From Oscillospiraceae bacterium (GTDB lineage: Bacteria; Bacillota; Clostridia; Oscillospirales; CAG-382): 64,000 nucleotides of DNA. Shown in pieces: positions 18,149 to 39,143 of the stretch. The stretch is taken from positions 1 through 64,000 of the forward strand of contig SVRF01000001.1 of NCBI GenBank assembly GCA_015064945.1, given 5' to 3'. A program made the position numbers and the translations under genes. Below the pieces are notes generated by a model. That model was not told where the DNA came from and made no database searches. It was given only the letters and a program-made list of their open reading frames with translations. Position 1 is the first letter of the stretch. Each line of letters starts with the position of its first letter.

Positions 18149-18433
18149 ACAGAATATGACCATACGCCCACCGTCGAACCGAATGAACACGCGTTAATCT
18201 AACTCCGGCTTCAAAACAGGCAACCCCACGGCACATCGAAGATACCGCTTAATGCTGCTTGGTTCCCCACCTGACATGGTTCACGGCTTTCAATTGCGTA
18301 AGACCCATTCATCAACAGCCTTTGATAAATGCAGCCGCACCCACAAAGCCCTCAAAGTGGACATCACCCCTGCTATAGCGGATTGCAGGTACAAGGCACC
18401 GCTAACTCCCCGGATAGTATGGCCATATTCTGT
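18149..18433 (-). ncRNA. ffs: Signal recognition particle RNA, large bacterial type
   Basis: On the minus strand the conserved domain IV hairpin is clear (ATGTCAGGTGGGG, then AACCAAGCAGCATTAAG, around 18254-18283), with GG-GGAA-CC replacing the more usual CC-GGAA-GG, a compensatory change. Upstream is an Alu-type 5' domain (GGTGCCTTGTACCTGCAATCC). The ends were set by pairing: ACAGAATATGGCCATAC at the 5' end is complementary to GTATGGTCATATTCTGT at the 3' end with one G-U pair. About 285 nt, as in Bacillus-type 6S-like scRNA. It lies just upstream of dnaX, as in many Firmicutes, and fills the 465-base non-coding stretch together with two promoters. Confidence 0.92.
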
Positions 18434-28187: not shown

Positions 28188-31100
28188 ATGAAGAAAGCAC
28201 CGGCGAAGAGACTACTTGCTTTATTCATAGCCTGTCTTATGGTTGTCAGCACTTGCCTGACTATTACCATAAACGCCGACTATGAAATTGTTGAGTGGGA
28301 CTATCTTGACGAGGGCACAGGTATGCCTGATCCCAATGACCCCACTGAGGGTTTACCTTTTCCTGACTTGGAAGGTGTTGACCCCATTATCTCCGAGTAT
28401 TATTTTACTTATAAGCCCACGGTTTATGCTTACGGTACAGACGGCAAGGTTGATATGACTACCCCCGTTACCTCCGTTAAAGCAGGCGATGTGTTTTGGC
28501 TTAAGATAGCTTGTACCGATATTGAAAAGGACAAGCTGCTTGAAAAGTATGAAGGTTTTTATGACTTTGAGGGCTTCTATACTTATGACGTTGAAGCAAT
28601 TGACCGTTATTACGGCGGTAAGAATGTAAGTCTTACTCCCGGTAAGACCGGTATCCTTGACACCACTTGGTTTAAAAAGTTTATCAATATCGATAAGCTT
28701 GAAGGTATGGCAGACTTTGAAATAGAGATGAACTGGGCAAATGTTTTCACCCCCAGTATTCCTCCTACGCCTGATTTCCCCACGGCTATCAACGGTATGG
28801 GTCAGCATTTCTCTTTCTTGGTTATGGGTGTTGAATACGGCGACTTCGGTATTATAGAAGACGAGCAATTCTATTTCTGCGTTCCTTTGGTAATAAAGGC
28901 TGACGCTGAGGACGGTGAAGAATATACCTTTACCGTTCCTTATCCCGGTTTGGAACAGTTTGCTGATGCTTACTATTGGAATGATGAAGACGGTTATCTT
29001 TATCACGACTCCGTATACGGTCGCGGCGGCGCATATACAATAGTTGTTGATAACCATGACAGCGTAGCGGCAAACCTTGCAACCAACGCACTTTATGCCA
29101 TTGATTACGGCTACGGCGACAGTTACGGCGAGTATGTTAAGGGCTTCCTTAACGACCGCAGATATCCTCTTACCGAAAAGTCCGATTACGATATTTTTAA
29201 TCTTGCAAACAGCGGCGTTCTTTCCGTTGATATGAAGCTTGAAGCATTGTCTTCCGTTGACAGTGTTGTTGTTACCTTCAACGATACCGCCGATGCCGAT
29301 TTACCTTCTTCTGTAGAAGTTTATGGTATTGATGCAGAAGGCAACGAAGTATTCCTTGGCGAGGCTGCTGAAGGCTCTGCGTATTACACAGGTGTTACCG
29401 ACAGTACCAATTATGCTTCTACCGTTACCGTAAATGCAGCTAATGCATATCAGTATGAGATAAGCGGCTTTGATTCCGGCAGATTTACAAACATCGTTGT
29501 TAGAGCCTATGGTGAAGGCAAAATTGCTATGGGTGAAGTTGAAATCAACGGCGAAGCTGCAAAGGTTTCCGTTACTATCAAAGACGGCGTTATAGACGGC
29601 GCTTCTTCCGATAACCTTTATTATCCCGGTGATGTGCTTACCATTACGGCAGATGAACTCGCACATAAGAGCTTTACCGAATGGACAACCGAAAACGGTA
29701 CCGGCTCTTTTGAAGATAACAACGGCGTTTGGACCTTTACCGTAGGTAACTCCGACGAAGTGATAGTTGCAAACTATGAAGATGTTTATTACAACTTAAC
29801 CGTACATAACGGTATTTTTGATGACGGTAATACAGAAGGTGAGTTCCTGTATGACAGCGTTGTAACTATTATTGCTGACGACGCTGAAGAAAACAAAGTG
29901 TTTGACCGTTGGATAGTTGTAGGTGACGCCATTGTTGAAGATGCAGAGAATCCCGAAACTACAATAACCGTACACGGCAACGCAACAGTTACCGCCACCT
30001 ACAGAGATACTTGTATGTTGGCAGTAACCAACGGTAGCGGCACGGGTTCTTATAACCCCGGTGCAACCGCAAACATTTCTGCGGATGCTGCAGACGAAGG
30101 CTATGTATTCTACAAGTGGGAAGTTGTCAGCGGTGATGTTGTTATAGCAGATGAATATTCTGCAACGACAACTGCTGTTGTAAATACCAATGCAGAAGTA
30201 AAAGCTACTTATGTATGGGCATATAAGGATGTTCCCGAAAACCTTGTAACCGAAAACACTCCCGTTACCATGGAACAGGGCAGTGTTGTTGGCGGAAATG
30301 TTGATTATACTAAGGATCAGCTCTATCCTCTCCTTTCCGACGGTAATTGGCTTATCGCTACCGACAGTAAAGGTGTAGTTCTTTCCTACGACCTGGGTCA
30401 GGCGTACGATGTATCCAAAGTTGTTCTTAATTTCTCTAAGCTTCAGGACTATGTTTTGACCGATGAAGTTATTATCTACGGTGCAAACGATGCAAGTCTT
30501 GCCGATAAAACACAGCTTGTAAAGTTTGCCGTTGCTTCTACGGATACTGACCTGAGCTTCGAAGACGGTATTAATTTAGTAGCAAATTCTTCTCTCCTTA
30601 ACATTGATGTAAACGATACAACCGGCTACAGATACATAGTTATAGAACTTTCTACCGACTATTATCTGAATTACCCCGGTCTTGGCATATTCCAGAACAG
30701 CCAGATTGCTATCGGCGAAGTTGAAATCTACGGTGAATATGCAAGATACGATATAACCGTTGACGGTGCCGATATCAGCTACGAAGGCAGTGATGATGTA
30801 ACCGACGGTTATTTGGCAGGCAGCGAAATCATTCTTACTCCCGTTGTTCCCGAAGGTTGTGAGCTTGAAGGTTGGGAAACAACTGCAGGTGAAGTTGTTT
30901 ACGAAGACGGCGAATACAAGTATGTTGTTGAAGGCGATGCTGAAATTACAGCAGTTTACACCGAAGTAAACCAGCCTGTTCCCGACAACTTGGCTCCCAA
31001 CTCTTCCGTACAGCTCGTTGCAGGCACTCTTAACTCTGATGCTGCTACCGGTGACTATGTAAACGACCAATTGTATCCTATGACAAGCGGTGCATATTGG

Positions 31101-34079
31101 GCTGATTATTACGGCGACAATAACGAAGAGATTAAGTTTATCTTTGACCTTGGTGATTACTACGATATCACTTCCGGTAACGTAACAGTTCATGCAGGTG
31201 ATGTTCTTGCACAAATTTTGATGCAGGAAGGCGTTAAGTTTGAAGGCTCCAACAATGCAGACGGCTCTGATGCTGTTCTCATTGGTCAGATAGCTTCCGG
31301 CTGTCTTGAACCTGAAAATTATACCGTTCTTGAATTTGCAGATTTCGGTGTTGACTCTGCACTTACAAGCGTGGCTTACAGATATGAAATAAAAGCAACG
31401 AACGACGTTTCTTGCCGTTATGTAATCGTTACGCTTTCTACCGAATACCAAAGTCTTATAGATACTTATTATCCCAATCCCGTTCTCAGACTCGGTGAAA
31501 TTGAGATCTATGGTACCGAGAGTGAGTTCAAGGTAACTATGGGTGAAAACGGTACAATAATTAATCCTTCCGAAGACGACCTTTATGATGATGGCGATGT
31601 TATTGAAATAACCGCTGACGAGATACCTCACAAGCAGTTCGTTGGTTGGGTTGTTGACGGCGAGGGCGAATTTGCTAACGCTGAAGATGCAAACACCACG
31701 TTTACTGTTGGTTCTTCCGACGCAACAATAACCGCTGTTTACGAAGATGTTCTTTACGGTTTGGTTGTTGAAAACGGTACCGGTGATGGCGAATATGCAT
31801 TCGGTACCACCGTTACTATCGTCGCTGACCAGAACGCAGATCCCGAAAAAGTGTTTGATAAGTGGGTTGTAACAGGCGACGCACAGGTTGCTGACGTAAA
31901 CAATCCGAATACCACAGTTATTACAGGTACAGACAGTATTGTTACAGCAACATATAAGGATAGAGTATATCTCTTGACGGTTGAAAACGGTACAGGCAGC
32001 GGCAACTATGCAAATGCTACGACCGTTACGATCACTGCCGATGCTCCTGCACAGCATATGGAATTCTCCCACTGGGAAATCGTTACAGGTGACGGCGTGA
32101 TAGCTGATGTGAACTCCGCAACTACTACTATAATCACATCCAATGAAGCTACAACAGTTCGTGCGGTATATAAAGACGTACTTTATGATGTTACCGTTAA
32201 CTACGGATATGTTGATCCCGAAAACTTGCCTGAAGAAGGCGGCTACAAGGTTGGCAGTGAAGTAGATATTTTCGCTAATCATCCTGCTGCGCACAAGCAG
32301 TTCGCTGGTTGGAAGGTTGTATCCGGTGATTGCACAATAGCTGACCCGAGCTCCGCAACAACCACCCTTACCGTTTTAGGCGGCGATGTTGTTGTTGAAG
32401 CAACCTACAGCGATGTAGAATACACCGTAACAGTTATCGGCGGTGAAGGTAGCGGCGATTACATCTATGATGCAAATGCTACCATCAAGTTTACTCCTCC
32501 CGCAGGTGCTTTGTATGTATTTAACGGTTGGACAGTTGAAGAAGGCGAAGCTGTTATAGCGGATGCTGCAGCTGAAGAAACCACAATCACCGTTAAGGGT
32601 GACGCTACTATCAAGGCTAACTACACAGTAGTATACAATGTTGACGTTATAAACGGTACTGTTTCCGAGGATGACGTTGCGGACTACTATTACAGTGGTG
32701 AAGTTATCACCGTGATCGCAGACGAAGTTCCCGCAGGTAAATACTTTGCAGGTTGGGTAATCGTTGAAGGTAACGGTACTATTGAAGATGCATCCGCTCT
32801 TACCACCACAGTGACTATCGGCACAAGCGATCTTGTTATCCGTGCAGAGTACGAACCTATTATGGTTGAACTTACCGTTAACAACGGTAACGGCAGCGGT
32901 AGTTACGCTCTTGGTTCCTCTGCAGAAATCAGCGCTGTTATTCCCGAAGGCTATATCTTCACAGGTTGGGAAGTTGTAAGCGGCGATGCTGTTATTGCTG
33001 ACGAAACCGCTGCTTCCACAAGCGTTATTGTTAATTCCGATGCTGTTGTCACAGCAAACTATGTTGAGGTATACAATGTAGAGGTTATAAACGGTAGCGT
33101 TGATGAGGAAAGCGCTAAGGATTATTATCTCAGCGGCGACGTTGTTAACATAGTTGCAGATCCCGCCGAAGACGGTATGAGATTTGCAGGTTGGACGGTT
33201 GTTGAAGGCGATTGCACTATAGAAAATGCAAGTGCTGCAGTTACAACCATTACCGTAGGCTCTGCTGACGTTGTAATTCGTGCAGAATTTGAAGAAATTC
33301 CCGTTGAACCTGAAACTGTTTATACCTTGACGGTAGAAAATGGTCTCGGCGGCGGTGAATACACAGAAGGCACAGTTGTAACAATTACTGCAGACATACC
33401 CGAAGGTTATGTATTTACCGGTTGGACAGTAACTGCCGGCGACGTTGTAATAGCTGATGTAACCGCTGTTGAAACAACGCTTGTTCTTACAGGTGACGCA
33501 ACCGTTACAGCTAACTACGTAGAGGCTTTGTATGTGGATATCGTTAACGGTGTAATCGACGGCGAAGAAGATTATTACCTTGAAGGCGATGTAATTACAA
33601 TAATTGCCGATGCCGCTCCCGAACATATGCACTTTGACAAGTGGGTATTGGTTGAAGGCGACGCTGAGATCGCAGATATCAATGCATCTACAACCACAGT
33701 AACCATTGGCAGCGGCGATGTTGTTATCCGTGCTGAATACACCGATAATCTTTATGATGTAACAGTTGAAAACGGCGTTATTACCAACGCTGATGAAGGC
33801 GGTTATGTAAACGGCACTGTATTGAATATTACTGCCGATGCTCCCGCTGAGGATTATGTATTTGATAAGTGGATTATCGTTTCCGGTAACGGTGAATTTG
33901 CAAACGAAAACGATGCAAACACCGCCTTCACGGTAGACGGTGATGCAGTTATCCGTGCAACCTACAAGGTTGTAAGCGACACTCCCGCAACGGGCGACAG
34001 CGGTATTGCAATATTCGCTATCCTCTCTGTTATAGCAGCAGGTGCCGCAGCAATTGTTGTTAAAAAGAAGTCTAAGTAA
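28188..34079 (+). CDS. Giant sortase-anchored surface protein with InlB-like repeats
   Basis: A 1963-residue cell-wall protein. A signal peptide (about 1-30) is followed by a unique domain (about 50-290). Three discoidin-like segments lie at about 294-457, 678-850 and 928-1111, each ending in a GEVEIxGE-type strand. Fifteen InlB-like/bacterial repeats of 70-80 residues occur as three (about 460-678), one (about 852-926) and eleven in tandem (about 1112-1927). Each repeat reads roughly VxNGxGxGxY, TITAD, VFxxWxVxxGD, TTITV, ATVxAxY. The C-terminus is a sorting signal: TPATG at 1932-1936, a hydrophobic helix and a KKKSK tail. It probably forms a long stalk carrying glycan-binding modules (inference). 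The class B sortase at 5771-6943 is the natural partner. Confidence 0.93.
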   Translation: MKKAPAKRLLALFIACLMVVSTCLTITINADYEIVEWDYLDEGTGMPDPNDPTEGLPFPDLEGVDPIISEYYFTYKPTVYAYGTDGKVDMTTPVTSVKAGDVFWLKIACTDIEKDKLLEKYEGFYDFEGFYTYDVEAIDRYYGGKNVSLTPGKTGILDTTWFKKFINIDKLEGMADFEIEMNWANVFTPSIPPTPDFPTAINGMGQHFSFLVMGVEYGDFGIIEDEQFYFCVPLVIKADAEDGEEYTFTVPYPGLEQFADAYYWNDEDGYLYHDSVYGRGGAYTIVVDNHDSVAANLATNALYAIDYGYGDSYGEYVKGFLNDRRYPLTEKSDYDIFNLANSGVLSVDMKLEALSSVDSVVVTFNDTADADLPSSVEVYGIDAEGNEVFLGEAAEGSAYYTGVTDSTNYASTVTVNAANAYQYEISGFDSGRFTNIVVRAYGEGKIAMGEVEINGEAAKVSVTIKDGVIDGASSDNLYYPGDVLTITADELAHKSFTEWTTENGTGSFEDNNGVWTFTVGNSDEVIVANYEDVYYNLTVHNGIFDDGNTEGEFLYDSVVTIIADDAEENKVFDRWIVVGDAIVEDAENPETTITVHGNATVTATYRDTCMLAVTNGSGTGSYNPGATANISADAADEGYVFYKWEVVSGDVVIADEYSATTTAVVNTNAEVKATYVWAYKDVPENLVTENTPVTMEQGSVVGGNVDYTKDQLYPLLSDGNWLIATDSKGVVLSYDLGQAYDVSKVVLNFSKLQDYVLTDEVIIYGANDASLADKTQLVKFAVASTDTDLSFEDGINLVANSSLLNIDVNDTTGYRYIVIELSTDYYLNYPGLGIFQNSQIAIGEVEIYGEYARYDITVDGADISYEGSDDVTDGYLAGSEIILTPVVPEGCELEGWETTAGEVVYEDGEYKYVVEGDAEITAVYTEVNQPVPDNLAPNSSVQLVAGTLNSDAATGDYVNDQLYPMTSGAYWADYYGDNNEEIKFIFDLGDYYDITSGNVTVHAGDVLAQILMQEGVKFEGSNNADGSDAVLIGQIASGCLEPENYTVLEFADFGVDSALTSVAYRYEIKATNDVSCRYVIVTLSTEYQSLIDTYYPNPVLRLGEIEIYGTESEFKVTMGENGTIINPSEDDLYDDGDVIEITADEIPHKQFVGWVVDGEGEFANAEDANTTFTVGSSDATITAVYEDVLYGLVVENGTGDGEYAFGTTVTIVADQNADPEKVFDKWVVTGDAQVADVNNPNTTVITGTDSIVTATYKDRVYLLTVENGTGSGNYANATTVTITADAPAQHMEFSHWEIVTGDGVIADVNSATTTIITSNEATTVRAVYKDVLYDVTVNYGYVDPENLPEEGGYKVGSEVDIFANHPAAHKQFAGWKVVSGDCTIADPSSATTTLTVLGGDVVVEATYSDVEYTVTVIGGEGSGDYIYDANATIKFTPPAGALYVFNGWTVEEGEAVIADAAAEETTITVKGDATIKANYTVVYNVDVINGTVSEDDVADYYYSGEVITVIADEVPAGKYFAGWVIVEGNGTIEDASALTTTVTIGTSDLVIRAEYEPIMVELTVNNGNGSGSYALGSSAEISAVIPEGYIFTGWEVVSGDAVIADETAASTSVIVNSDAVVTANYVEVYNVEVINGSVDEESAKDYYLSGDVVNIVADPAEDGMRFAGWTVVEGDCTIENASAAVTTITVGSADVVIRAEFEEIPVEPETVYTLTVENGLGGGEYTEGTVVTITADIPEGYVFTGWTVTAGDVVIADVTAVETTLVLTGDATVTANYVEALYVDIVNGVIDGEEDYYLEGDVITIIADAAPEHMHFDKWVLVEGDAEIADINASTTTVTIGSGDVVIRAEYTDNLYDVTVENGVITNADEGGYVNGTVLNITADAPAEDYVFDKWIIVSGNGEFANENDANTAFTVDGDAVIRATYKVVSDTPATGDSGIAIFAILSVIAAGAAAIVVKKKSK
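31520..33975 (+). repeat. Eleven tandem InlB-like coding repeats
   Basis: Protein-level tandem repeats, each about 210-240 bases, encoding the FxGWxVxxGD core. The DNA copies are well diverged, so this is an old array under selection for fold and not a recent expansion. Four more copies lie upstream (about 29565-30215 and 30745-30965). Confidence 0.9.
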
Positions 34080-34116
34080 ATCTTTAAAACTAATAACAGC
34101 AAGTTTTAAATAAGCC

Positions 34117-34157
34117 TCCCCCTATGACGGTTATTGCCGTCATAGGGGGACTTTTTT
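34117..34157 (+). terminator. Strong intrinsic terminator after the giant gene
   Basis: A perfect 14-bp stem (TCCCCCTATGACGG / CCGTCATAGGGGGA), 6-base loop, then CTTTTTT. It isolates the giant gene from the next operon. Confidence 0.95.
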
Positions 34158-34224
34158 GTACCGCATAGTAGTTGTAATTTTGTGAGTGGCTTACAATAGT
34201 GCCGCTTTAGATAGTGCATTTATA

Positions 34225-34253
34225 TTGACAAAAATTAATGTTTGGTGTATACT
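34225..34253 (+). promoter_or_regulatory. Sigma-A promoter of the PfkB-fold/murI operon
   Basis: TTGACA (34225-34230), 17 bp, TATACT (34248-34253), 65 bases before the first start codon. Confidence 0.85.
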
Positions 34254-34317
34254 GCACTATGTGTATTGATGTAAAATATCAAGGTCGTTTAAATTTGCGT
34301 CTTATCGGAGGTGCTTT

Positions 34318-35235
34318 ATGAGAGATTCTGTTCTTACCATCGGTACAGCCACAATGGATGTGTTGCTTAACGTGCCTTATGCACCAAACGGGGGCAGGGT
34401 TGTTAACTCTAAGGATAGGTATTCTTTTACACCGGGTGGTAACGGAGCTTATACTGCAGTCGCTGTAAGCCGTTCTCAAACAGCCTCTACGCTTCTCTCC
34501 AGGGTTGGTGAAGACGAGCAAGGCGACAGGCTTATAAGATACTTAAAAGACGACGATGTTGATACAAATTTTATTGTTAAAGACCCTGTAAATCAAACAG
34601 GACTATCCGTATATTTACTTGAGGAATACGGTCTTGGCGGCGGTGTCAACTTTAAAGGTGCGTCCGCAAAAGTATCCTGTAATAATGTAGAGACGGCTTT
34701 TAGGTCGGAGCCTGCTGTTGTTACCGCAAATTTGGAAGCGGACGGTGAAGTGCTTAACTATACGGCGTCCCTTTGCAGAGAATACGGTTTACCTTTAATT
34801 TTAGATACGGTTGGCGCTTATGAAAATGTAAGACTGCATACTTTGGACGGAGATAACATAATAATTACAGGTGATAAAGAAATAGAAATACTAACAGGTA
34901 TACGGGCAGATTCCACGCAAAATTATTTGCGCGCTTGTATAGCTTTGTTTGACAAGATGCCTTTAAGATTTGCCGTGCTAAAATTAGGTACTAAAGGTGC
35001 CTATATTTATGATGGTAAATATTGTGAGCTTTTAATGTCACCCGGATTGCAAATTGTTGATACCACTGCAGAGCATCAATGCTTTGTCGGTGCGTTTTGC
35101 AGTGACTTTTTGAGGAATTATGAGGTCGATAAAGCGGCAAAATATGCGCTTGCCGCATCAAATCTTGCCGCCTCTAAGGTGGGCGGTTTTGCTTCTATAC
35201 CTACAAAGGCAGAAATAGATAATATTCTTGACTGA
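34318..35235 (+). CDS. PfkB/ribokinase-fold protein lacking the catalytic motif
   Basis: A 305-residue protein with the full length and fold features of the ribokinase family: GGNGAYTAVAVSR in the N-terminal signature region and VLKLGTKGAYIY near the ATP site. The C-terminal signature, normally DTTGAGDxFxGAF, reads DTTAEHQCFVGAF (residues 248-260). The GAGD anion hole is gone and the catalytic Asp is Gln254. The NxxE magnesium motif also looks altered (GDKE). As a sugar or nucleoside kinase it is probably inactive, unless the chemistry differs; a binding or regulatory role is possible. GGAGG site. First gene of an operon with murI. Confidence 0.85.
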   Translation: MRDSVLTIGTATMDVLLNVPYAPNGGRVVNSKDRYSFTPGGNGAYTAVAVSRSQTASTLLSRVGEDEQGDRLIRYLKDDDVDTNFIVKDPVNQTGLSVYLLEEYGLGGGVNFKGASAKVSCNNVETAFRSEPAVVTANLEADGEVLNYTASLCREYGLPLILDTVGAYENVRLHTLDGDNIIITGDKEIEILTGIRADSTQNYLRACIALFDKMPLRFAVLKLGTKGAYIYDGKYCELLMSPGLQIVDTTAEHQCFVGAFCSDFLRNYEVDKAAKYALAASNLAASKVGGFASIPTKAEIDNILD

Positions 35236-35255
35236 TTTTAACGGAGCGTGAGCAG

Positions 35256-36050
35256 ATGGCAACAACTGTCGGAATTTTTGACTCAGGCTTGGGTGGACTT
35301 ACCGCCGCCGCTGAGTTTGAAAAGCTGTTTGATAATAAAAAATACATATATTTCGGCGATACGGCGAGAGTGCCCTACGGCACAAAATCTGCAGATACCA
35401 TTTGCCGCTATGCGACACAAGATACAAGGTTTTTACTGGATAAGGGAGCATCTCTTATTATAGTTGCCTGCGGTACCGTAAGCGCCAATGCCATAGACCA
35501 TCTCAAAAGAAATTTTGATGTGCCCATCATCGGTGTTGTAGAGCCTGCCGCAAAAAAAGCTGTGGAATTAGCTTTATGCGGCAAAGGCAGAGTAACCGTG
35601 CTCGGAACCTCAGCGACCGTGAAAAGCGGCGCTTATGAGAGAGCCATAAAAAAACTTGATGCTTCTATCGAGGTGCGCTCCGTGGCATGCCCTATGTTTG
35701 TTCCTCTCGTTGAAAACGGATATACAAGCGGAGAAGCAGCTGAGCTTTTTGTCAAAGAATATTTACAGCCCACCGTTGACTTTGAAGCAGATGCGGTTAT
35801 TTTGGGTTGTACCCACTATCCCCATTTAAGCGGGGTGATAGGGTCGGTTTTGCAGGGTAGTACCTTGGTAAACTCCGGTAAAGAGGCTGTTATCGCCGCA
35901 TCCTATCTTTTGGGCAATGACAGCGTAAGTGTTGGCGGTCCGGAGTTTTATGTAAGTGACGCCCCTGAAAGTTTTGAACGGCTTGCAAGCATTTTTATGC
36001 AAAAGGACGCAGTAGGTCAGGTTAATTGTATTGATATAGAGAGTTATTAG
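35256..36050 (+). CDS. murI: Glutamate racemase
   Basis: A 264-residue MurI. It has the N-terminal FDSGLGGL, one catalytic Cys at residue 72 (VACGTVSANA) and the other at 185 (LGCTHYPHL). It makes D-glutamate for peptidoglycan. The first motif is usually ACNTASA; here Asn and Ala are replaced by Gly and Val, an unusual but intact cysteine site. It starts 20 bases after the PfkB-fold gene and is followed 4 bases later by the DUF1934 gene. Confidence 0.92.
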   Translation: MATTVGIFDSGLGGLTAAAEFEKLFDNKKYIYFGDTARVPYGTKSADTICRYATQDTRFLLDKGASLIIVACGTVSANAIDHLKRNFDVPIIGVVEPAAKKAVELALCGKGRVTVLGTSATVKSGAYERAIKKLDASIEVRSVACPMFVPLVENGYTSGEAAELFVKEYLQPTVDFEADAVILGCTHYPHLSGVIGSVLQGSTLVNSGKEAVIAASYLLGNDSVSVGGPEFYVSDAPESFERLASIFMQKDAVGQVNCIDIESY

Positions 36051-36054
36051 TATT

Positions 36055-36510
36055 ATGAAAATGCCAGTTGAAATAATGGTAACAAATAAAAAGCTGAATT
36101 ATAGAGATATGTGTGTTGCGGGAGACATACCGGAAGCTCACGAAAGCACCGAAAATTATAACGGTTTTATGGTAATAAACGGTGAAAAGCTATCCTTGGA
36201 TTATGATGAGGTTTTTGATGACGGTATCACCGCAAGCACATCTGTTATGTTGCAAAACGGCATTGCGCTTATAAGTCATAGGGGCGAAATAAATACAAAT
36301 CTTGTGTTTTTGCCGGGTGACAGCTGTGACTGCGTCTGTAACAACGGTTACAGAACTATGAATTTGCGTGTGAATACACAAAGCTTAAAAAGCAATATCG
36401 GCCCGCTTGGCGGCAAGCTTAAGATAGATTACACTATAGAGATTATGGGTAACGTAGCGGAAAAAAACAGCATTTGCGTATCTGTATGTCCCTCTGACAG
36501 CGCAAGCTGA
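36055..36510 (+). CDS. DUF1934 (YwiB-like) beta-barrel protein
   Basis: A 151-residue cytosolic protein matching DUF1934, with the C-terminal pattern GGKLKIDYTIEIMGNVAEKNSICVSV. The family is predicted to form a calycin-like beta-barrel; its function is not established. It lies between murI and the dnaD gene. In many Firmicutes it is near cell-wall or tRNA-synthetase genes. Confidence 0.82.
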   Translation: MKMPVEIMVTNKKLNYRDMCVAGDIPEAHESTENYNGFMVINGEKLSLDYDEVFDDGITASTSVMLQNGIALISHRGEINTNLVFLPGDSCDCVCNNGYRTMNLRVNTQSLKSNIGPLGGKLKIDYTIEIMGNVAEKNSICVSVCPSDSAS

Positions 36511-36549
36511 TACTTAAATACAGGGGTAATGCCCAAAAGGATGTTTATA

Positions 36550-37470
36550 ATGGCAACAAAGAAAAATTTGCGGTTGGATGCCAATGTGGGCGACTGCTTT
36601 ATAATGACAAAAATAAAGGCAGAAGCCTTTAAAACATACGGCGAGGCAGAGCTCAAAGTGCTTCTTTGCGTGGCGCAGGAAGGAACTGTCGACCTTGCAA
36701 GGATTTCTGCAACGCTTGGTATGGAACAAGCCGCAATAGATACCGCCGTTAACAAATTATGTGAGGACGGACTTCTCTGTGCGGGCGAGGAAAAGGCAAA
36801 GAGAATTTCTAAAAACATTGCGTCAAGCTACGATAACGAGGATTTGGCGGATGCCATAGATAATGACAAGGGCTTTAGGGCTGTTACGAACTTTACTTGT
36901 GATATATTGGAAAAACAGCTTAATCGCAACGATCTTAATACATTATATTCCCTGTACGATTATTACGGTATGAGTGCAGAAATGATATGCGGAATTGTAG
37001 AGTATTGCGTTTCCACAGGCAAACGCAGTATGTCGTATATTTTCAATACTGCTATGTCCATACGTGATGACGGTATCACATCCTATGAGGCGCTGGAGGG
37101 ATACATAAAAGCTAAGCGCAGTGTTAACAGTAAATCTACACGTTTCAGAAAACTTTGCGGTATAGGTAACAGAGAACTCACTTCCAAAGAACGCGGTTAT
37201 ACCGACCGCTGGTTTGGTGAGATGAAGCTTAGCTTTGATCTTGTAAAAAAAGCATACGAGCTTACTGTTGACCGTATCGGTGAGCTTAAATTTCCTTATA
37301 TGTCAAAAATAATAGAGCAATGGTATGCAAAAGGTGTACGTACCGTTGAGGATGCAGAAAAGCTGGACTCAAAGCATAAGGAGACAAAGGCGGCAGAAGG
37401 CAGTGAATACGATATTGAAAAATATTTCACCGCCGCTGCAAAAAAGGGATATATTAAACAGGACGAATAG
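36550..37470 (+). CDS. DnaD-domain replication protein
   Basis: A 306-residue protein with an N-terminal winged-helix-like region (YGEAELKVLLCVAQEGTVDLARISATLGM) and two DnaD/DnaB_2 domains (about 115-190 and 215-285), the second ending in the family motif KIIEQWYAKGVRTVEDAE. DnaD proteins help open DNA and load the replicative helicase. A longer frame starts at 36529, but the ATG at 36550 has an AAAGGAT site at good distance. A DnaC-like ATPase gene follows 23 bases later, the usual clostridial pairing. Confidence 0.92.
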   Translation: MATKKNLRLDANVGDCFIMTKIKAEAFKTYGEAELKVLLCVAQEGTVDLARISATLGMEQAAIDTAVNKLCEDGLLCAGEEKAKRISKNIASSYDNEDLADAIDNDKGFRAVTNFTCDILEKQLNRNDLNTLYSLYDYYGMSAEMICGIVEYCVSTGKRSMSYIFNTAMSIRDDGITSYEALEGYIKAKRSVNSKSTRFRKLCGIGNRELTSKERGYTDRWFGEMKLSFDLVKKAYELTVDRIGELKFPYMSKIIEQWYAKGVRTVEDAEKLDSKHKETKAAEGSEYDIEKYFTAAAKKGYIKQDE

Positions 37471-37493
37471 TTTTGTCCGCTTGAGGTGTGTGT

Positions 37494-38465
37494 ATGTCGT
37501 ACGAAGAAAGAAACCACGCTTTTGCCGAGCTGGATAATAAAAGGATGCGTGCCCTTGAAGAGGCAAGGCTTAGAGAGCAGGAGCTTGAAAGTAAAATTCC
37601 AACACTTAAGGACGTTAACAGAGCAATAGCATCTATCGGTCCTAGACTTTTAAGCTTGGGAATGTCAGGTGACCCTGATTTTGAAAGCAAGTCCGAGGCT
37701 TTGTATAAAGAGCACGAAGCGCTTATAGAAAAAAAGCATAGCCTGCTTACGAAAAACGGCTATCCTACGGATTACGATATGCCCATATATTCTTGCAAGC
37801 TGTGTAACGATACCGGATATAATGATACAAAAATTTGCAATTGTGTAAGGGAAGCTATAGCAAAACGTGCTTATTACAGCTCGGGTTTGGGCAAAGCCTT
37901 GGAAAGCCAAAGCTTTGATGCCTTGGATATGATGTATTATACCGGCACTACGGAAAGCGGCGCTTCCGTTAAGGAGCAAATGAGCTTTGTGGTAGATTAC
38001 TGCAAACGTTACGCAAAATACTTTTCGCCCGGTGCTGAAAGCCTTTTGATGATCGGCGGCGCTGGTAGGGGAAAGACCCATTTGGCATCTGCCATCGGTA
38101 TGGAGGTTATACGTAAGGGTTATACGGTTGTATACGAAAATGCCGCAAATATATTTAACACCTTTGAAGCAGAGCGCTTCGGTAGAGATATAAAGGCAGA
38201 CCCGGAAAGATATTACGACTGTTCGCTTTTAATAATCGATGATTTGGGTACGGAGTTTAATACGCAGTTTACTCTTTCGGTGCTGTTTAATCTTATTAAC
38301 CACCGAATGATCAACGGACTTTCTACCATTGTCACTACAAACCTAAGTCTTAAAGAGATTGAGAACAATTATAAAGAGCGCATATTTTCTCGCCTTAGCG
38401 GCGAGTATACGGTACTGCCTTTCTGTGGCAAGGATATACGCAGACTTAAAAAGGAAGCACTATGA
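37494..38465 (+). CDS. DnaC/DnaI-like helicase-loader ATPase
   Basis: A 323-residue protein. The N-terminal half is helical with a cysteine cluster ([14 protein letters not shown]) that may bind zinc. The C-terminal AAA+ domain has Walker [13 protein letters not shown] and Walker [12 protein letters not shown]. It loads the DnaB/DnaC helicase together with DnaD. ATG at 37494 is preferred to the GTG at 37488 because GAGG lies 7 bases before it. It overlaps rnhA by 4 bases (ATGA), so the two are coupled. Confidence 0.92.
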
Positions 38466-38944
38466 AAAATGTAGAGATATATACGGACGGTGCGTGTAGA
38501 GGTAATCCTGGTAAAGGCGGCTATGGCACGGTGCTTGTGTATAACGGCAGAGAAAAGGAATTGTCTGCAGGTTACACGCTTACCACCAACAACAGAATGG
38601 AGCTTATGGCAGCAATTGCAGGTCTTTCGGCTTTAAAAGAGACCTGCAATGTAACGTTGTACAGCGACTCTAAGTATTTAGTGGATGCCGTAACCCTTGG
38701 TTGGGCAGAGGGATGGAAAAAACGGGGCTGGAAAAAGGCGGACAAGCAACCGGCGCAAAACCCGGACCTTTGGGAAACGCTTCTCACGCTTTTAAAAAAA
38801 CACAATGTAAATCTTGTATGGGTAAAAGGTCATGCAGGACACGCCTATAATGAAAGATGTGACCTTTTGGCAACTACCGCCGCAGACGGGGACTGTTTGC
38901 TTACTGATAGCGTCTTTGAAGACAAGAACGGGGAGGCGATTTAG
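38462..38944 (+). CDS. rnhA: Ribonuclease HI
   Basis: A 160-residue RNase HI with all four acidic residues of the family: [16 protein letters not shown], an Asn/Arg/Met-Glu-Leu motif (NNRMELMA), [10 protein letters not shown] and the His-containing loop [15 protein letters not shown]. It cuts the RNA strand of RNA:DNA hybrids, e.g. R-loops and primers. It overlaps the DnaC-like gene by ATGA. The helicase-loader/RNase H linkage fits replication upkeep. Confidence 0.96.
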
Positions 38945-38945
38945 C

Positions 38946-39143
38946 TTGAAATATTTGGTTGGTGAAACGCCGATGGAGCAGGGACAGCGTGTTATAATCA
39001 CCTTCTCCGATGGAAAAAGTGTAAGCGCTGTGTATAAAGATACCTACGGCTATAACCACAGCTTTGAAACGGAAACAGGCAGTACGGTTACCTTAAGTAA
39101 TCATTTTATGAGGTTGAAAGGAATCAGGGTAAAGCCTGAATAA
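38946..39143 (+). CDS. Small hypothetical protein (65 aa)
   Basis: A short frame, 65 residues from a TTG start two bases after the rnhA stop, with a GGGAGG site inside the end of rnhA. It reads like a compact beta-rich protein (GQRVIITFSDGKSVSAVYKDTYGYNHSFETETGSTVTLSNHFMRLKGIRV). No family is recognised. A longer open frame upstream is the rnhA shadow. The placement, coupling and sensible composition support a real gene. Confidence 0.55.
   Translation: MKYLVGETPMEQGQRVIITFSDGKSVSAVYKDTYGYNHSFETETGSTVTLSNHFMRLKGIRVKPE

Follow-up and report, generated by a model that had tools for sequence, protein, structure and literature searches.

The nearest described case of a PfkB-type protein with a role other than catalysis is that of the plant proteins FLN1 and FLN2, components of the plastid RNA polymerase complex for which the excerpts available of PMC3409070 and PMC9698557 report a role in plastid transcription and no fructokinase activity. 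According to the same excerpts the FLNs are eukaryotic, keep the catalytic aspartate (GSGD, ASGD or QSGD) and carry longer N-termini and insertions. Yeast Gal3p, cited in the excerpt of PMC3409070 as a sugar-kinase fold turned regulator, belongs to the galactokinase family of unrelated fold and binds galactose and ATP, whereas the substrate contacts of the protein described here are mostly gone. For ribokinase of E. coli (RbsK), the available part of PMC9604405 lists Asn14, Asp16, Gly42, Lys43, Asn46, Glu143 and Asp255 as ribose contacts, and Asp255 is described there and in the available part of PMC10339645 as the catalytic base. To judge by its title, PDB entry 9a6b is a model of an RBSK-GUDB complex, a ribokinase contacting a partner, and offers a lead for a non-catalytic role. 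Pseudoenzymes are defined in the abstract of PMC10211241 as lacking conserved catalytic motifs by sequence. The open-access literature searched yielded the plant FLNs and no bacterial PfkB pseudokinase, and no relevant paper on ribokinase moonlighting or RbsK-GudB.

The window, the whole stretch of 64,000 nucleotides that was analysed, contains an open reading frame of 305 codons with an ATG start, a TGA stop and no internal stop, consistent with the original prediction that the frame is intact. The features of the locus are:

34117..34150, forward strand: terminator-like hairpin between the upstream surface-protein gene and the pseudokinase operon
34225..34253, forward strand: sigma-70-type promoter TTGACA-17-TATACT (11 of 12 consensus bases)
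34307..34311, forward strand: GGAGG, likely ribosome-binding site, from the sequence
34318..35235, forward strand: predicted ribokinase-fold pseudokinase, 305 aa (PF00294, 107 bits against a cut-off of 25.8; AlphaFold2 model)
34435..34452, forward strand: GGNGAY (residues 40-45) replacing GGKGAN, with RbsK Lys43 and Asn46 substituted, from the alignment
34870..34881, forward strand: GDKE (residues 185-188) replacing NxxE, from the alignment
35068..35079, forward strand: AEHQ (residues 251-254) replacing A/GAGD, the anion hole and catalytic Asp255, aligned with E. coli RbsK
35256..36050, forward strand: murI, glutamate racemase (TIGR00067, 209.8 bits against a cut-off of 146.65)
36055..36510, forward strand: DUF1934 protein (PF09148, 54.1 bits)

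The PF00294 score places the protein in the PfkB family. Its AlphaFold2 model (pLDDT 85.7) matched E. coli ribokinase (1RKD) with a TM score of 0.90, and ribokinases were the best structural matches as well as the nearest relatives by profile and by sequence. The ribokinase profile TIGR02152 scored 153.2 bits, below the equivalog cut-off of 299.65 that the E. coli RbsK control exceeded at 360.8 bits; three intact orthologs from the family scored 268-274 bits, likewise under the cut-off. Pfam revealed no DNA-binding domain. A viral origin of the gene was rejected, IMG/VR holding no relative of the protein. Besides the fold, the protein shares with RbsK its length, the GG motif, Asp16, Gly42, Glu143 and the DTT..F signature frame, and differs in the replacement of Asp255, anion-hole Gly254, Lys43, Asn46 and Asn14 and in not lying in a ribose operon.

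The second PfkB signature reads DTTAEHQCFVGAF, with the flanks DTT and FVGAF kept as had been predicted. Residues 251-254 align with A252-A253-G254-D255 of E. coli RbsK, which bears out the earlier claim that AEHQ stands in for the catalytic GAGD with Gln254 at the position of the aspartate; the small anion-hole residues have given way to a Glu-His pair. At the NxxE site, which we take to be the metal/phosphate motif, the asparagine is Gly185 and Glu188 is kept, so that the loss of this asparagine was also rightly noted. Further substitutions from RbsK to the window protein are Lys43 to Asn42, Asn46 to Tyr45 and Asn14 to Thr12, leaving three of the seven ribose contacts (Asp14, Gly41 and Glu140 as numbered in the window protein). 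The protein thus falls under the sequence definition of a pseudoenzyme. It is not of the FLN type, having lost the aspartate and lacking an N-terminal extension at 305 aa.

In order to evaluate conservation of the motif, 99 relatives were searched. An ortholog was present in all six genomes of the same genus (g1) in addition to the window's own. Of these seven proteins, four have AEHQ and three AEHE; the Ala, Glu and His do not vary even where overall identity is as low as 43%, and none of the seven has the aspartate of the G/A-x-G-D signature, which excludes within the genus the alternative that orthologs keep the motif intact. Asp14, Gly40, Gly41, Gly43, Tyr45, Ala251, Glu252 and His253 are invariant in all seven. 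The contacts equivalent to Lys43 (the lysine of GGKGAN), Asn46 and Asp255 are lost in 7/7 and that of Asn14 in 5/7, and either Asn or Glu of the NxxE site is missing in each. That the named genomes of the genus were assembled from metagenomes speaks for AEHQ as a product of sequencing, assembly or binning error. However, the same motif recurs across seven assemblies, six of which trace to goat cecum, sheep rectum and 'Lapin' (read as rabbit) samples, and the frame is intact. Moreover, the PfkB genes elsewhere in these genomes are normal: the 26 PfkB hits in the seven genomes comprise the seven orthologs and 19 others, 18 of which have GxGD and the remaining one GTGC, presumably the usual form in ThiD. 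An error is therefore exceedingly improbable and was rejected on the recurrence of AEH in 7/7 genomes. The results support the pseudokinase reading of the original prediction by the AEHQ motif, the lost contacts and their genus-wide occurrence.

The wider family comprised 63 genomes, 62 with some match and 57 with a single-copy ortholog usable for the active-site table. The other six were G007, with an ortholog split over two contigs that nevertheless reads AAGD, G039, with an end fragment, and G024, G029, G035 and G047, which lack a complete ortholog. Among the 57, 39 orthologs are intact, 17 are full-length degenerate and one is partial degenerate. The intact proteins, ribokinase-like by sequence, keep the catalytic aspartate in 39/39 and all seven ribose contacts in 38/39, the exception having Ser in place of Asn14; with the degenerate ones they share the single-copy ortholog group, the promoter pattern and, for the g9 group, the ancestral locus. 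The standard ribose operon is not the setting of most intact orthologs either, since rbsD is absent from 61/63 family genomes. The 18 degenerate sequences are distributed as AEHQ or AEHE in g1 (7), GASE (8), GTEA (1) and a partial sequence that stops before the motif (1) in g9, and GCRE in g11 (1). The GASE group has also replaced Asp16 with Arg and Asn46 with Leu, and the degenerate g9 group as a whole fixed residues other than those of g1 (Arg, Arg, Ser, Leu, GASE). A ribokinase fold was likewise predicted for a GASE-type protein (pLDDT 87.8, TM 0.89 to 1rka). The catalytic position is Glu in 12 of the 17 full-length degenerate proteins and Gln in the window protein. A more distant homolog from Oscillospiraceae SIG658 (L107:6001-6900) reads AAAP at this position and sits on a very long branch; it may represent a further separate loss.

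Changes and constraints were also compared by column. In the intact orthologs, 77 columns reach a conservation of at least 95%. Changes affect 25 of these columns in g1 and 21 in the g9 group, with 13 in common against 6.8 expected (p 0.0011), many of them at the active site. Pocket columns are nevertheless invariant more often than the rest within g1 (8/14 versus 76/291, p 0.017) and within the g9 group (11/14 versus 142/291, p 0.027), which suggests remodelling of the pocket followed by fixation, and not drift.

The degenerate genes appear to be under purifying selection. By the method of Nei and Gojobori, dN/dS was 0.05-0.13 in the seven of ten degenerate pairs that were computable, dS being saturated in the other three, all from g1. 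The window gene and its nearest relative gave 0.053, a rough ratio with dS near saturation, and the two AEHE species 0.098, also rough with dS above 3; five GASE pairs gave 0.07-0.13, compared to 0.04-0.09 for four intact pairs. The TTGACA-17-TATACT site is the top-scoring promoter-like site within 34080-39000, in line with the strong promoter claimed earlier. A family pattern, TTGACn-16/18-TAnnnT within 150 bases upstream, was found for 51 of 55 orthologs (16/17 degenerate, 35/38 intact, 7/7 in g1), against a background of 24/2350 other windows of the same loci and 24/285 other open reading frames; L135 and L136 were outside both this count and that of gene order. The promoter has thus been conserved although the neighbours shifted from spoIIID or pyrH to murI. 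These results bear on whether the gene is a relic on its way out, with selection slowly relaxing and no present function. G047 (94% complete) lies inside the degenerate g9 clade and has no full ortholog, from which the protein is not indispensable, and degenerate branches are longer than those of most intact orthologs. Set against this are the intact frame in 17/17 full-length degenerate cases, the low dN/dS, the retained promoter and the invariance of AEH, which together make a relic very unlikely. The window gene shows neither a broken frame nor relaxed selection, and a pseudogene was rejected on its frame, purifying selection and conserved promoter; the statement that the gene is no decaying pseudogene holds across 7/7 genomes.

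The number of losses was evaluated from gene trees, an rpoB tree and gene order. The gene tree from all columns grouped the 19 degenerate rows with support of 100/98. Removal of seven stretches around the active site, in a tree that excludes L107, L068, L069 and L136, reduced the support to 81/36. The branches of the degenerate proteins are long, and the grouping is read here as probable long-branch attraction because g9 as one clade was not rejected in the gene-tree test (p 0.456). The rpoB tree, a single-gene tree with quick support values, covers 50 of the 63 genomes; the 13 others, G005 and G053 among them, had no match, had fragments only or were absent from the set. It placed all of its 20 g9 genomes in one clade (SH-aLRT 99), with g1 elsewhere. 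Within g9, a degenerate clade of ten that includes G047, which has no full ortholog, forms a sister pair with an intact clade of equal size that includes G039, which has only a fragment. G099 bears the label GASE in the rpoB tree even though its sequence stops short of the motif, the Arg/Arg/Leu changes being present in its N-terminal half. On rpoB, the AU test rejected the grouping of the degenerate genomes into one clade (p 0.0089 for a set of 17 rows and 0.006 for one of 16). Split matches also suggest an RpoB insertion near query residues 806-820 in the intact half of g9 and in g10 that is missing from most of the degenerate g9 half and from g1.

Neighbours named by Pfam are SpoIIID, RRF, a UppS-type prenyltransferase, a CdsA-type cytidylyltransferase and Ddl; PyrH is the name assumed here for a neighbour that Pfam identifies no further than amino acid kinase, and MinD is presumably the right name for another neighbour gene. 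The spoIIID gene lies 50-140 bases upstream of 9/9 full-length degenerate g9 genes and equally of 15 intact orthologs from g4, g5, g7, g9 and g10, which places the degenerate g9 genes at the ancestral locus and makes orthology the simplest account of them. In the intact g9 loci themselves spoIIID is not directly upstream in 8/11 (in one it is downstream on the other strand, and some flanks are short). In 12 intact loci from g2, g3, g6 and g8, pyrH is the gene that comes next, at a distance of up to about 700 bases. Since the rpoB tree rejects one degenerate clade and gene order agrees, catalysis was probably lost at least twice in the family; g11 with GCRE would be a third loss, on one long branch. 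Ancient paralogs with differential loss, in place of independent degeneration, are a possible explanation that the all-column gene tree favours by grouping the degenerate proteins, but the rpoB tree and the locus that degenerate g9 genes have in common with intact orthologs speak against this.

The murI gene starts 20 bases past the stop codon of the window gene, and to this extent the operon with murI in the original prediction stands; the arrangement is special to the genus. It adjoins the gene in the four AEHQ species, whereas ddl lies in between in the three AEHE species and elsewhere in the four AEHQ species. The idea that murI is the ancestral context was rejected, the ancestral neighbour being spoIIID. 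Within the genus, ddl left the operon on the very branch on which Glu254 became Gln (L075-L080); with one event each, this coincidence proves nothing. Directly upstream of the operon (28188-34079, forward strand) is a gene for a repetitive, probably secreted cell-surface protein of 1963 aa with a strong terminator-like hairpin at its end. The sole Rfam hit in the window is the large bacterial SRP RNA (RF01854, 164.8 bits) at 18160-18422 on the reverse strand, and no tRNA was found in the window.

It has been suggested, in the original prediction, that the protein is a sugar or nucleoside sensor. As stated this is not supported by the residues, since four of the seven ribose contacts are gone and Glu-His takes the place of the small anion-hole residues, which makes binding of the original sugar or of ATP doubtful. 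A modified form of the idea changes the ligand: the rebuilt pocket (Asp14, Tyr45, Glu252, His253, Gln/Glu254) would bind a different small molecule and report it to a partner through opening and closing of the lid. The eight invariant residues from Asp14 to His253 and the above-average conservation of the g1 pocket columns are as expected for such a metabolite sensor, but with the genus-wide loss of contacts, the lack of a DNA-binding domain and the different residues fixed by the g9 group, which make a shared ligand unlikely, this explanation is on balance rather unlikely. Alternatively, the protein could still be an enzyme, through weak phosphotransfer with Glu (or Gln) for Asp or through a new reaction of the Glu252-His253 pair. 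Glu at the catalytic position in 12/17 proteins, which would allow for residual or new chemistry, and the invariant Glu-His pair in g1 are consistent with this. However, the window protein has Gln, its anion-hole Gly is His, and Lys43, Asn46 and the Asn of NxxE are lost; moreover, the plant FLNs keep even the aspartate, yet no fructokinase activity is reported in the excerpt of PMC9698557. Continued enzymatic activity is thus quite improbable. Pocket conservation is the main evidence for both the sensor and the new enzyme, and a working, remodelled pocket would fit it better than a pure scaffold.

The separate degeneration of a second lineage shifts the best reading to a non-catalytic role older than the loss. 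With a probability of roughly 0.55, the protein is a non-catalytic pseudokinase derived from a ribokinase-like protein that was single-copy and constitutively expressed in a family of uncultured gut Clostridia. The ancestor would have been such a protein, phosphate transfer would have been lost in its degenerate descendants, and selection would maintain a non-catalytic function, in which the ribokinase fold most likely binds a partner protein or a ligand; for the window protein we infer a binding or scaffolding role. Since the protein was retained by separate lineages that had lost catalysis, this function probably goes back to the active ancestor, which would have been a moonlighting enzyme. 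An ancestral second function is the simplest cause of independent losses combined with retention, and convergent recruitment is a possible alternative. Enzymes of D-amino acids and of peptidoglycan precursors are the first candidate partners because the g1 gene shares an operon with murI and, in three species, ddl, a link that is weak. A fuller version can be advanced only tentatively: the non-catalytic job would be important family-wide and older than the loss, at least two lineages would have dropped the enzyme and kept the protein, and the g1 copy, moved beside ddl and murI, may act on enzymes of D-amino acids or peptidoglycan precursors.

Pseudoenzymes are common in general, and the protein, judged from its sequence and predicted fold, is a real and unusual variation on the known pseudokinase theme, with a proposed non-catalytic function. 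Single-copy orthologs that repeatedly and separately lost one and the same active site, yet kept their promoter and predicted fold, constitute a natural experiment. It would mean that catalysis is not what selection keeps in this family, and suggests that a sugar kinase of ordinary appearance has a second, hidden function.
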